Assembly (NCBI RefSeq): GCF_002381345.1 | Contig: NZ_CP020660.1 | Location: 1 to 64,000, forward strand | Direction of reading: 5' to 3' | Length of the DNA: 64,000 bases | Source of the DNA: Candidatus Enterovibrio altilux | GTDB taxonomy: Bacteria > Pseudomonadota > Gammaproteobacteria > Enterobacterales > Vibrionaceae | Shown: piece after piece, positions 8,948 to 61,617 of the stretch | Layout: the number at the start of each line of letters is the position of its first letter | Position numbering within the stretch: position 1 is the stretch's first letter | Program-made: the position numbers and the translations under genes | Notes under the pieces: model-generated | Told to the model about the DNA's origin: nothing | Seen by the model: only the letters and a program-made list of their open reading frames with translations | The model's database searches: none

Positions 8948-8950
8948 ATA

Positions 8951-9006
8951 AAATTTTTTCTTAATTCGAGTTCAGATAGCAAATTTTAATTCAAATTAGG
9001 AAATTT
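8951..9006. repeat. Short palindrome built from the IS903-like transposase-3' end
   Basis: The left arm (TTCTTAATTCGAGTTCAGAT) is the IS terminus downstream of the transposase, read inwards. The right arm (TAATTCAAATTAGGAAATTT) is the same terminus in inverse orientation. Almost nothing lies between them. It resembles the clearer 79-bp case at 19774-19852. Confidence 0.5.
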
Positions 9007-9618
9007 CATTACAATATACGCTCTAAACAGCTAGGTTAACTGAAATATTCAAGTATATGGACTAACTTTACTATCAAAAATTAACTGAAAGTAGTGTAAT
9101 TCAGCTTTACTTAATTGTGGCTCACTAACACTTTGGATTGATGAAAAAGTTATTCAGCTATGAAATCAAACTAAGCCGAGTAATCGTGGAAAATTTCGCC
9201 TATTCAATACCACTAAGAGGTTAGCAATGATTCATTCTATTTACAAACTTGCTTAACTATCGTTGTCATGTCTTCATTTTTTATGCATTAGCAAGCGATG
9301 ATGCTTACGACATCAAGCAGTGTTATAAAATCATTCGCATTAAACAAGCTGTTCCACTCATCCCATCAAGACAAGAGACAATTTTTGGGGTACGAGATTA
9401 TCTGTGCAATTTAGCGGTTAGTTACCAAAAGTTATACGGTTCACATAAGCATTGTAAAATGAGTCTAAGGAATTATCATGCTTAGACTGGAGAAACTGAC
9501 GCCATAATAAAAGAGTTACATAAGCTGACAGGGATAAGTATGCCTAAAGTGCAAGAGAGCGTTTAGTAGTTCATTACATTGAAATTTGCTATCTGAACTC
9601 GCATTAAGAAATAACACT
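8995..9618 (+). mobile_element. Internally deleted IS903-like copy
   Basis: It starts inside the IS left end (ACGCTCTAAACAGCTAGG at about 9015) and ends with TGCTATCTGAACTCGCATTA near 9609. The central transposase part between about 9205 and 9275 is mostly lost. Its right end lies 3 bp from the convergent smpB stop codon at 9622. Confidence 0.75.
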
Positions 9619-10381: not shown

Positions 10382-10436
10382 GTAGTGGTTTAACAAGCTC
10401 AAAAAATTTAATTATTACCATAGCTAAGCTTTGTTG

Positions 10437-11475
10437 ACTAATTCAAATTCAGAGCGTAAATCCCAATATGATGAACTATTAGGTGCTCACTTTTGTGTTA
10501 GGCATACCTAGTTTTGTCAACTTATTTAACGTTTCTATCATGGCGTAAGTCTCGCTAATTTGAGCATTATGATCTCTTAAGTTTAATGTCACCCCCCTAG
10601 TAGTGTTTGACTTGAGCCATTGCCGTCTATGATAGGGAACATTTATGGTAATCATACCTCGTTTTCTAATACTGATTGGAATCGTATAACTTCTGGTAAC
10701 TGCCCGCTAAATTACGCGGATGACCTCGTTCCTCAAAAGTTATTCCTTTTCTTTGTGAGATGAGTAAAGCCGCTTGTTTAATACGAACGGTTCGTAACAT
10801 TGTCTGGTGTCGGAAGCACGATCGGCTGATATTTCATTAATTTTCGGCGGGTCTGTTTTAGTAAGCTAGGTAACACTTCACTGTCAGTGACATTTGATGC
10901 ACTTAGCTTAGCAGCAAGGATTCCATGCGTATTTATATTTACCGCTAAATGTAACTTGCGCCAGACTCATCATTCCCCACCAATACGATGCTTTTTTACT
11001 TCTCATTCTTCTTCAACGTAGATTTTGAGCCCCACAAAATCCATGGTTAAGTGCTGGATGCTTCCTTTATTCGTCGTCTTGAACGTGACGTTAACCATTT
11101 TGGCTGCTTGCAAATGCATAAATAGTGAGGGTATGACAATGGTAGTTGAATAAGTTTGGAAACAAAATTAATGAATTTTTTGAGACCTTTCAATGGCATT
11201 GAAAATACGCATTTAACCATGAGGACCGTTGTAATGACTAAGTTGCTAAATAAACGAGATCTGCCATGACTATCCTGCTGAGTTTAATTGCATAGCTGAA
11301 TAGCTTCTTCATCAGTCTAGAATGTTAGTGAGCCCCGATTGATTAAAGCTTGATTATATTGCTTACAGTTAGTTGTTTTGTAGCGAAGATTGTTCATAGA
11401 ACTGAATATTTCAGTGAACTTCACTGTTTAGAGTGTTAATTGAAAATTTAGTTTTCTTATTTAGGAAATAAAGCT
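10437..11475 (-). mobile_element. IS903-like copy, full length but degenerate
   Basis: It runs from AGCTTTGTTGACTAATTC to TTTAGGAAATAAAGC, transposase on the minus strand, about 1.04 kb. The gene is broken by stops and small indels. Its right end is joined directly to an inverted transposase-3' tail (11476-11700), the chimeric arrangement seen at several other loci in this window. Confidence 0.85.
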
Positions 11476-11700
11476 GGTTATCATAAACGTTCCCTAACAG
11501 AGGCAACAATGGTTCGAGTTAAAAAGCTACTTGGAGGGAGATTGAGTCTAAAAAAGCATGGAACTTAGATTCGTGAAGCCACCACCATGATGAAGTGTTA
11601 AATAAGCTTACAAGGCTAAGTATGCCCAAAATGCAAGCTAGCATCTAATAGTCCATGATGTTGGGATTTGCTATCTAAATTTTAATTAGTGAACAAAACC
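11476..11700 (+). mobile_element. Inverted 225-bp transposase-3' tail joined to the preceding IS copy
   Basis: The segment starts with TGGTTATCATAAACGTTCCC, an internal IS903-like site, and ends with the IS terminus near 11700 (AATTAGTGAACAAAACC). It encodes the end of the transposase (GGRLSLKKHGT...) in decayed form. Together with 10437-11475 it forms a unit of 1264 bp whose two outer ends are the same IS terminus inverted. Confidence 0.75.
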
Positions 11701-16199: not shown

Positions 16200-16407
16200 G
16201 ATTTTGTTTGCTAATTTGAGTACAGAAAGCAAATGTCAATATGATTAACGATTAAATGCTTATTTACATTTTAGGCATACCTAGTCTTATCAACTTATTG
16301 AACGCTTGTATTTTTGTGCAGGTTTCGCCAACTTGGGTATTATCATCTCTTAGGCTCAATGTTCCTCCCAGTAGTTTTTTAACTCAGTGTATCGCTGTCT
16401 TTTATAG
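16200..16407 (-). mobile_element. Inverted transposase-3' tail of IS903-like element
   Basis: It starts at GATTTTGTTTGCTAATTTGAG and contains the usual AGGCATACCTAGTCTTATCA segment and the C-terminal transposase part. It breaks off at CTGTCTTTTATAG, about 20 nt before the junction point used elsewhere, and joins the left end of the following plus-strand copy. Confidence 0.75.
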
Positions 16408-17396
16408 AGCTTTGTTTCCTAAATCAGAGAATTAAATTATTAATCTACGCTCTAATTAGCTAGGCTCGCTTAAACATTCAGGTCTATGAATAAGCTCCGT
16501 TACAAAACAACTAACTGGATGCAATATAATCAAACTTTAATCAATCATGGTTAACTAATGTTTTGGATTAATGAAGAAGCCATTCAGTTATTCAATTAAA
16601 TTAAGCAGGGTAACAATGGGAGACCTCGTTTACTTAACAACTTAGCCATTATTACGGTCTTCATGGTTAAATGCATATTTGCAATGCCATGGAGAGATTT
16701 GCAAGGATTCATTAATTTTGTTTTCAAACTTGTTCAACTGCCATTGCCATGTTCTCACTATTCATGTATTAGCAAGCGAGTCAAAACGGTTAACGTCACG
16801 TTCAAGACGAAGAATAAAGAAAGCATCCAATACTTAACCATTGATTCTAGGGGGCTTAAAGTTTGTGGTAAAAAATGAAAAGTAAAAAAGCATGGTATTG
16901 CAGGGAAACAGTGAGTCTGCTGAAAGCTACATTTAGTGGTAGATATAAATACGCATGAAACTATTGGTGCTGAGTTAAGTGCATCAAATGTAACTGACGG
17001 TGAAGTGTTATCTAACTTGCTCAAACAAACCTGCTGAAAAATTAATGAAATATCAGCCTATGGCTCTTCAATATTACGAAATAGTTCGCATTAAACGAGT
17101 GTTATCCGCGTAATGTAACGGTCAGTTTCTAGAAGTTATATGGTTCCAATTAATATTAAAAACCGAGGTATAGTAATCATAAATATTCTCTATCAAAGCC
17201 GGCAATATTTGAGTTAAAAAACTACTGGTAGGACGTTGAGCTTAAGAGATCAGAATGCTCGAATTAGCGAGATTTACGTTATGATAAAAGCGTTAAAGAA
17301 GCTGACAGGATTAGATATGCCTAAAACAAAAGCGATCATTTCATTGTTAATCATGCTGGGATTTGCTACCTGAACTCAAATTAGGGAATAAAACTT
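16408..17396 (+). mobile_element. IS903-like copy, near full length
   Basis: AGCTTTGTTTCCTAAATCAG at the left and AAATTAGGGAATAAAAC at the right bound a plus-strand transposase that is broken into pieces: MNKLRYKTTNWMQYN near 16486, and a piece near 16663-16878. With 16200-16407 it forms another same-end chimera of about 1.2 kb. Confidence 0.82.
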
Positions 17397-19657: not shown

Positions 19658-19773
19658 GACTTTGTTTCTTCAATCAGAGAACTAAATTATCAATTTACGC
19701 ACTATACAGCATAAATGTACTTAAATATTTAATTTGTTTAATAAATTATTTCTATAAAGCAATCAACTGGAAA
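19658..19773 (+). mobile_element. IS903-like left-end fragment
   Basis: GACTTTGTTTCTTCAATCAGAG 12 bp after amtB starts a plus-strand IS fragment that keeps only the first 115 bp, ending at AAAGCAATCAACTGG. It is cut by the palindromic element at 19774. Confidence 0.7.
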
Positions 19774-19852
19774 GGCTTTGTTTCCTAATTTGAGTTTAGA
19801 TAGTGAATAATGTTGGGATTTACGATCTGAATGCAAATTAGGAAACAAAGCC
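19774..19852. repeat. 79-bp palindromic element with identical IS903-like ends
   Basis: The first 19 nt (GGCTTTGTTTCCTAATTTG) are repeated perfectly in inverse orientation at the right (CAAATTAGGAAACAAAGCC), and most of the interior also pairs. Both arms are the transposase-3' terminus; the other IS end is absent. Its termini are the best preserved in the window, in contrast to the decayed neighbours. Confidence 0.75.
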
Positions 19853-20637
19853 CTAACTGACTGCTAGATTGTTGCGGATGACCTCTTTCCCAAAAAGTTG
19901 TTCCTTTTTTTGGTGGAATGAGTGGAACCGCTCGTTTAATACGAACGGTTTCATAACATTGTCTGGTGTCGCAAGCCCTATCGGCTAATATTGCATTAGT
20001 TTTTTGTCGAGTCTGCTTGAGCAAGTTAAGTAACACTCAACTGCCAGTCACATTTGATGCACTTAACTCATCAGCAATCATTGTACTCATATTTACATCT
20101 ACCACAAAATGTAACTTACGCCAGACTAACCGTTTCACATCAGTGCCATGCTTTTTATTTTTCATTCTCCTTCATTGTAGATTTTGAGCCCCTATAGAAT
20201 CAATGGCTAAGTGCTGGATAGTTCCTGTATTCTTCGTCTTGAACGTGACGTTAACTGTTTTGGCTCGCTTACTAATGCATGGATAATGAGGGCACGGCAA
20301 TGGCAGTGAAGAAAAGTAAAAAAACACAACTAATGAATCCTTGCAGATCTTTTAATAGCATTGAAAATACGCATTTAACTATGAGGCCGTCGTAGCGATT
20401 AAGTTACTAAATAAATGAGGCCTTCTATGATTGTCTTGCCTAGTTTGATTCCATAGCTGAATAGCTTCTTCATCAATCTAGAATGTGAGTGAGCGGCTAT
20501 TCATTAAAGCTTGATAATACTGCTTCCAGTTAGTTTTTTTGTAGCGAGATTTGTTCATAGACATGAATATTTCAGTTAGCCTAGCTGTGTGAGAGAGTTG
20601 ATTGAAAATTTAGCTTCCTATTTTAGGAAATAAAGCC
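19853..20637 (-). mobile_element. IS903-like copy lacking its transposase-3' part
   Basis: It begins inside the element (CTAACTGACTGCTAGATTG) and runs to TTTAGGAAATAAAGCC. The transposase on the minus strand is broken. The missing 3' end is replaced by the 79-bp palindrome at its left. Confidence 0.8.
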
Positions 20638-20785
20638 GATTACCATAAACGGTTTTCTAGGCTTGCACCATAATAAAAGCATTAAATAAGCTGGTAGGAT
20701 TAAGTATACTTATAACGTAAGCAATCGTTTAATAGTGAATCATATTGAGATTTGCTATCTAAAACTGAATTTGGAACAACGTTAG
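20638..20785 (+). mobile_element. Inverted transposase-3' tail fragment
   Basis: GATTACCATAAACG directly follows the IS end at 20637, the same junction as at 11475, then a deletion leads to the final part (AAGCATTAAATAAGCTGGTAG) and TGCTATCTAAAACTGAATTT. Confidence 0.7.
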
Positions 20786-60268: not shown

Positions 60269-60944
60269 GGCTTTATGTCTTAAGTAAAATAACTAAGTTT
60301 TCAATTAACACTTTAGATAGTTGGGCTCACTAACATTCTGGATTGATGATGAAGCTATTCAACTATGGAATCAAACAAAACGGGGTAACTACGGGAGACT
60401 TCGTTTATTTAGTAACTTAACCATTACGACGGCTTCGTGATGAAATGCGTATTTGCAATACCACTGAGGGGTCTACAAGGATTAATTGATTCTGTTTTTA
60501 AATTTGTTCAACTGCCGTTGCTATGCCTTCACTATTCATGTTATGCATGAGCAAATGAACCAAAACGATTAACGTCACGTTCAAGATGGAGAATAAAGTA
60601 AACATCCAGCACTGAACTATTAATTCTAAGGGCTCAAAGTCTATAGTGAAGAAAAATAAAAGTAAAAAGCATGGCTAATGGCAAATAATAAATCTGGCAC
60701 AAGTTACACTTAGCGATAGATATAAATACGCATGAAATTATTGTTGCTGAGTGAAGTGCACCAAATTTGCCTACCTGTGAAGTGCTACCTAACTTCCTCA
60801 AACAGACCCACTGAAAAATTAATGAAATATTAGCCGACTGGTGCTTATGACACAAATAATGCTACGAAACCATTCATATTAAGCGAGAGACTTTATAGCA
60901 TACTTTGTTTCCTATTTAATACTCTAATTTAGGAAAGAAATTCC
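60269..60944 (+). mobile_element. IS903-like copy ending in a short end-to-end palindrome
   Basis: GGCTTTATGTCTTAAGTAAAA starts a plus-strand copy that is broken throughout and stops near 60900. There, ACTTTGTTTCCTATTTAA and TAATTTAGGAAAGAAATT form a 45-bp inverted end pair (60901-60944), similar to the palindromes at 8951, 19774 and 61570. The following 60945-61138 is empty. Confidence 0.72.
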
Positions 60945-61390: not shown

Positions 61391-61569
61391 GTGTACTTGA
61401 TTAGCCTGTATACGCAGGCTGCAGGCTGGAGTATCTAAAACTTATCATATATTCATAGCTCTACAGTGTATACACTATCTATAAAAAATTACAATAAAAT
61501 ATGCTTAAATGGTTTCTTTAATGTTAATTATTTACAATAAACATTGTTTTTTGCTACGCATGACTTCTG

Positions 61570-61617
61570 ATTTTGTTTCCTAATTTACTATCTAAACTTG
61601 AATTAGTAGACAAGGCC
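61570..61617. repeat. 48-bp palindromic IS903-like end pair
   Basis: ATTTTGTTTCCTAATTTAC at the left and GAATTAGTAGACAAGGCC at the right are the same IS terminus in inverse orientation, with about ten bases between. It lies alone between cspD and sodB, with no IS copy next to it. The rest of 61391-61629 has no gene. Confidence 0.55.

Follow-up and report, generated by a model that had tools for sequence, protein, structure and literature searches.

The 79-bp palindrome at positions 19774-19852 of the window (the whole stretch of 64,000 nucleotides that was analysed, corresponding to C1:1-64000) consists, as its profile matches indicate, of a single end of an IS5-family element, the transposase-3' end (E), folded back on itself. 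It probably corresponds to an insertion sequence (IS) composite bearing the 3' end at both termini which has lost its middle, leaving E1-26 followed by the reverse complement of E53-1. The explanation favoured here, with somewhat better than even confidence, is that the palindrome is a deletion stub, left when slippage at short repeats removed the middle of this composite, an event that probably occurred more than once. The composite, which is common in the IS family and was overlooked in the first-pass annotation, is the likely parent of the palindrome.

The genome comprises 2,143,356 bases in four contigs, of which C1 is 1,604,691 long. The IS consensus was built from 22 long matches in the window plus the first loci, and the IS profile from a sample of 804 kb covering 37.5% of the genome (C1:1-464000 and C2:1-340000).

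Structure of the palindrome

The palindrome and the elements adjoining it are as follows:

19774-19852, no strand: 79-bp E-E fold-back (stub), E1-26 then reverse-complement E53-1
19774-19808, + strand: left arm, IS profile 1-35 (transposase-3' end E), profile match
19800-19852, - strand: right arm, inverted IS profile 1-53, profile match
19800-19809, + strand: junction, short imperfect repeat common to both arms, consensus ATAGCAAATC in E27-36 and ATAGTTAATC read from E53-44
19660-19773, - strand: IS fragment, profile 938-1049, touching the left terminus of the palindrome, profile match
19854-20636, + strand: IS fragment, profile 270-1050, touching the right terminus of the palindrome, profile match
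20658-20776, - strand: inverted E fragment, profile 9-127, past the 5' end of the 19854-20636 fragment, profile match

Profile numbers increase from the 3' towards the 5' end of the transposase, which in the 19854-20636 fragment therefore reads on the - strand. Both arms of the palindrome match the transposase-3' end, which bears out the earlier proposal that one IS end had been fused to itself. Among the 12 inverted repeats of the window with arms at most 100 bp apart it takes the top place (arms of 35 nt, 86% complementarity, 9-nt spacer), and its outermost 19 bp form the perfect inverted repeat already described. Its ends had also been considered better preserved than those of neighbouring copies, in agreement with the finding that the only two exact copies of the 19-mer in the window are its own termini, while seven further sites match with 3 mismatches (chance expectation 0.03 at up to 3 mismatches). 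As single-stranded DNA, the palindrome has a folding energy of -23.7 kcal/mol (z = -12.2 versus shuffles).

Similar but more decayed palindromes had been listed at 8951-9006, 61570-61617 and 60901-60944. The first two stand with slightly corrected boundaries, and the third is doubtful as an E-E palindrome:

8950-9010, no strand: 61-bp E-E fold-back, boundaries and junction placed by eye, junction at a ATCTCAAC/ATCTGAAC repeat
61569-61617, no strand: 49-bp E-E fold-back (E1-17 and E1-35), scan and profile match
60901-60944, no strand: 44-bp palindrome-like piece, left end E-like, right end ambiguous between E and the 5' end

The element at 8950-9010 falls under the thresholds of the sample-wide fold-back scan. 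That at 61569-61617 had been described as having no IS copy beside it, and indeed no IS profile match was found within 300 bp. The left end of 60901-60944 matches the 3' end at 16 of 24 positions versus 13 for the 5' end; its right end gives an ungapped tie (10 of 24 for each end) and is by eye closer to the 5' end. An IS fragment stops at 60892, 8 bp from this piece.

The parent insertion sequence

The parent IS is about 1,050 bp long and decayed. In the consensus, E starts GGCTTTGTTTCCTAATTCGAG and the 5' end (F) starts GGCTTTATTTCCTAAATC; the terminal inverted repeats are related, both starting GGCTTT.TTTCCTAA. The consensus transposase, truncated to the 244 aa ahead of a premature stop, scores 304 bits against NF033579 (cut-off 140) and also matches PF13737 and PF01609, and by these domain matches the parent enzyme is an IS5-family DDE transposase. 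The ends are presumably akin to those of IS903. The IS903-type members of the IS5 family share with the present element the transposase family, the length of about 1,050 bp and ends starting GGCTTT, and they produce a 9-bp target duplication. What sets the present family apart is that a composite bearing two 3' ends is common and target duplications are not evident.

The premature TGA of the consensus transposase lies at profile 239-241, with TGG as its main alternative: at profile position 239, 55% of 230 copies in the 804-kb sample carry T (TGA) and 35% carry C (TGG). We take this stop to precede the part of the transposase holding the catalytic Glu, and given its position many spreading copies may have needed an outside source of transposase; decay from C to T would explain the stop more simply. 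Furthermore, internal IS deletions (about 911-988, 628-808 and 869-938) recur at several sites in the sample, as in C1:191162-192120, C1:345517-346427 and C1:453378-454344, and it looks as if internally deleted subfamilies had spread too.

The luminous anglerfish symbiont 'Ca. Enterovibrio luxaltus' CC26 has been reported to carry 672 IS5-family transposases, with all transposase genes called pseudogenes, truncated or without inverted repeats (PMC6020299, in the part available). The available part of that main text makes no mention of MITE, palindrome, miniature or composite elements, and the available part of PMC6773444 none of MITEs or palindromes.

The two-3'-ended composite

Two composites are found in the window:

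10428-11700, + strand: complete composite with two E termini, its 5' end joined to inverted E at about 11474/11475
16203-17394, - strand: second composite, E fragment 16203-16409 fused to IS 16409-17394

The composite is about 1.28 kb long and consists of an IS with an inverted copy of E, of about 226 bp, fused outside F, which places E at both termini and provides inverted arms of about 226 bp. Of the 214 F termini in the 804-kb sample, 62 have, immediately to their outside, an inverted E broken at about 226 (a match of 9 or more of 14 bases), versus 0.3% with shuffled flanks; a looser mapping places 70 F termini in the 224-227 bin. The fullest 50-bp size class of E-E pairs in the sample is 1250-1299 bp, with 22 pairs, and the F-E fusion is contained in 38 of the 73 E-E pairs spanning 500-1320 bp, where E-E and E-F pairs were made by distance alone and a few join unrelated ends (C2:127511-128302, for example, ends in a 79-mer). 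The flanks of the 38 fusion-bearing pairs gave 13 matches among themselves, and since these look like nested IS sequence the composites occupy different sites.

The F-E fusion was found in none of 12 other genomes of the genus at an E-value <= 1e-5, a search in which a much diverged fusion could be missed. The composite has the appearance of a hybrid IS which spread within E. luxaltus. No diagnostic differences between its two arms, by which each half of a stub might be traced to its arm, were detected at p < 0.01 over 60 positions (66 versus 114 ends), and inspection of the transposase loci of four other genomes, together with two of an E. escacola-like genome (G012), gave no useful boundary for the ends.

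Registers and junctions of the fold-backs

When the middle of a composite is deleted, each register (the length of the resulting fold-back) corresponds to one alignment between its two arms. In the 804-kb sample, 11 fold-backs fall into seven registers: 79 (n=4), 293 (n=2), and 300, 105, 61, 56 and 49 (n=1 each). Of the 21 rows of the fold-back scan, seven 36-bp pairs confined to a single E end or its edge were dropped before counting, as were C2:292668, C1:394476, C2:8860 and C2:232419 (other IS pieces or no clear fold-back). A separate 37-bp pair, at C1:350028, was likewise discarded, and C2:108388 was counted under its shorter pairing.

All seven junctions coincide with short direct repeats found in the consensus of the family, with a mean score of 5.06 versus 2.07 +/- 0.42 and 0 of 20,000 random sets as high, in a test that is partly post hoc, the junctions having been placed by alignment (that of 61 by eye) and the indel-bearing registers corrected. 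A uniform null (2.11) leads to the same outcome. Registers 56 and 49 have weak junction repeats (score 3). Ranked by repeat strength among 409 near-symmetric registers, 105 is first, 61 fifth, 79 seventh, 300 tenth, 293 eleventh and 49 only 81st; over all registers, 79 ranks tenth with ties. Repeat strength was rejected as a predictor of copy number, register 79 being the commonest while its repeat is not the strongest. The three elements of about 295 bp use two different repeats: with uncorrected lengths this class shows no junction repeat, and indel correction resolves it into 293 and 300. Taken as a whole, this is the junction pattern that slippage between short repeats would produce once a hairpin has placed them side by side.

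These junctions also bear on aberrant transposition, which had been suggested earlier as a direct source of the palindromes. A single E end would attack a site near itself or in a sister copy, giving an E-E fold-back without any composite parent. It is true that 50 of 304 E termini adjoin another IS copy, at positions scattered along it, and that 17 of the 18 E-E elements that abut another IS do so on one side only, so irregular joining or later flank loss was common. Such an event should, however, leave an exact E terminus at the inner junction, and the junctions observed are at internal positions (about 26/53, 159/139 and 56/61) on direct repeats, so that we regard this origin as improbable.

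Copies across the genome

The genome-wide search for the 79-bp element that had been advised was made with a covariance model built from five palindromes, 150 of the 2,263 candidates being scored. Among those scored, at least eight elements of 78-79 bp in one register were found at E-values <= 1e-6:

C1:19774, C1:503478, C2:240147, C2:128224, C1:457165: 79-mers from which the model was built, matching by construction
C1:1456344, C1:1207131, C1:558551: further 79-mers

Weaker full-coverage matches (64-82 bp, E-value >= 0.001) were left out, two of them (L081 and L092) after inspection. Within 1.5 kb scanned on each side, C1:19774, C2:240147 and C1:1207131 adjoin IS pieces, C1:1456344 lies about 120 bp from the nearest one, and four of the eight are more than 500 bp from any. 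Of these four isolated copies, one touches a tRNA-Ala gene at its end, and a second begins 13 bp past the last codon of a 459-residue frame. The 79-mers occur in both orientations and at different sites, and most retain recognisable E termini on both sides.

Several stubs, these two included, thus lie just downstream of genes: C2:128224 (L068), C1:457165 (L069) and C1:1207131 (L072), the upstream genes being tRNA-Ala, the 459-residue frame and a 153-residue frame resembling rplI by eye. Such stubs might conceivably act as hairpins at transcript ends. Outside this genome, the model matched only one of the 20 other genomes searched, the 2.6-Mb genome G012 of the same genus. Its match, a palindrome of about 83 bp (G012:C31:34661-34743, L094), is without IS homology, unrelated to the parent IS, and was rejected as a relative.

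The constant length of the 79-mers is what a mobile miniature element (MITE) would show. On this explanation, a single 79-bp deletion occurred in one composite, and transposase acting in trans subsequently spread copies of the stub, which retained both E ends, to further sites. The eight copies of one register in both orientations at different sites, the isolation of four of them and the E termini kept by most are all in its favour, and it accounts for 79 being the commonest register. Bacterial MITEs such as MITEAba12 (PMC6382973, in the part available) are likewise short, with no evident gene, IS-like ends and several copies of one length; the present elements differ in using a single IS end twice, in showing no target duplications and in bearing signs of more than one origin.

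It had been argued beforehand that palindromes found only beside larger IS fragments, with unrelated interiors, would be deletion products rather than mobile elements. The genome presents neither feature: the interiors are shared, and the palindromes are not confined to such sites, because four of the eight copies stand over 500 bp away from any other IS piece. A common interior is nevertheless no proof of mobility, as the junction sits on a direct repeat between the arms, and the other registers arose through the same kind of deletion. The mobile reading proposed earlier is therefore only partly sustained by the copies themselves, and with the evidence on origins and flanks given below it is considered less probable than recurrent deletion, while being the more serious of the two alternatives.

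One origin or several

In an arm-switch model, the crossover falls at columns 26-31 in four 79-mers and at 22-24 in C2:240147; in C1:457165 it is spread over 25-30, mostly at 25. Indels mislead the model in C1:1207131 and C1:558551, which by eye belong to the first and second crossover kind, respectively. Two of the eight 79-mers thus appear, from their aligned arms, to carry a different crossover (one of them assigned by eye). The second kind requires T at column 25, present in about 1% of 195 E ends, which stands against a single copied stub. Moreover, the first five 79-mers share derived states no more than random chimeras of E ends do (19 versus 29 +/- 8), so that the excess expected of a MITE is missing in the five copies tested. 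The crossover kinds and the shared-state test together suggest several origins of the 79-mers.

On the other side, 79 is the best-populated register although its repeat is surpassed by others, and two 79-mers, 19774 and C2:240147, adjoin another IS at nearly one position (269-270), which might reflect common descent. This shared outer junction was judged insufficient to prove a single origin: its opening bases are not identical in the two copies, and there is a full composite that abuts at about 263. A genome pattern search for the junction gave six matches, only one (the window copy) without mismatch; a reversed control gave as many, and the search misses C2:240147.

Target duplications and flanks

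The 9-bp target duplications, whose presence had been proposed as a check, are not seen at the eight 79-mers, where 18 of 72 flank positions match, and nothing clear emerged at several lengths and offsets. The match rates over 9 bp in the other classes, whose E-E and E-F pairs were again formed by distance alone, were:

E-E pairs of 1150-1310 bp (40): 0.300 versus null 0.281
E-E pairs of 600-1149 bp (32): 0.354 versus null 0.298, p = 0.016, the only class reaching this
E-F pairs of 950-1060 bp (80): 0.278 versus null 0.268
Shorter E-F pairs (49): 0.320 versus null 0.299
Small elements (9): 0.321 versus null 0.295

For 38 E-F pairs outside composites, the rate was 0.32 versus a mean of 0.28. 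The missing duplications are a weak point against a MITE, since they are lacking in the other classes too. Flanks have evidently been lost or reshuffled, because all but one of the 18 abutting E-E elements have IS on one side only; at the sole element with IS on both sides, about 120 bp of target are lost. Of 66 E-F pairs, the 21 with an adjoining IS include composite fusions and were left out of this count. Duplications frequently go missing through recombination between IS copies and through adjacent deletions, according to PMC11708052 (in the part available).

Proposed formation of deletion stubs

The palindromes were not assigned to MITEs by default on account of their identical length; after the shared-state, crossover and direct-repeat tests that reading gave way to recurrent deletion as the favoured one. 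The deletion stubs would have formed in three steps. Initially, as the structure of the composite implies, one IS copy would have inserted at about position 226 of another, so that both termini became E and inverted arms of about 226 bp arose. The composite would then have spread, presumably moved by transposase acting on its two E ends; its copies at different sites are observed directly. Subsequently, the inverted arms would pair and replication would slip between direct repeats lying nearly opposite each other, at the junction positions mapped above, so that the middle is deleted and an E-E fold-back left. In consensus coordinates, the ATAG..AATC repeat would give 79 bp and other repeats 49, 56, 61, 105, 293 and 300. 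Most 79-mers would thus have formed separately in place. No example pair of a composite and its stub at paired sites was found, and since the whole family has decayed, stub formation would lie entirely in the past.

Nearly precise excision of Tn10, to which this process may be compared, leaves a small symmetric remnant. Both involve deletion between short direct repeats inside inverted ends; in the present case, the parent is a single two-3'-ended IS, deletion makes use of several repeats, and the case rests on genomic, not experimental, evidence. In a Tn10-related transposon, nearly precise excision has been described as copy choice between short direct repeats (PMC12524634, in the part available).

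Implications for the IS family

In a wider sense, and at slightly less than even confidence, the IS may have changed its architecture during a genome-eroding burst, in which a two-3'-ended hybrid rivalled the canonical form and, rendered unstable by its long inverted arms, deleted itself at predictable repeats, with fossils of slippage excision left across the genome and the palindromes being scars and not mobile miniatures. The IS5 transposases of this symbiont have been described as broken (PMC6020299, in the part available), whereas here the terminal repeats are recoverable and in many copies the element's own end is present a second time, inverted. If the deletion stub reading is true, same-length palindromic copies can resemble a MITE without having moved. 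Deletion of this type is known mainly from laboratory work on Tn10, and the match of the fold-back junctions to repeats of the consensus implies that natural genomes may keep a readable record of the process.
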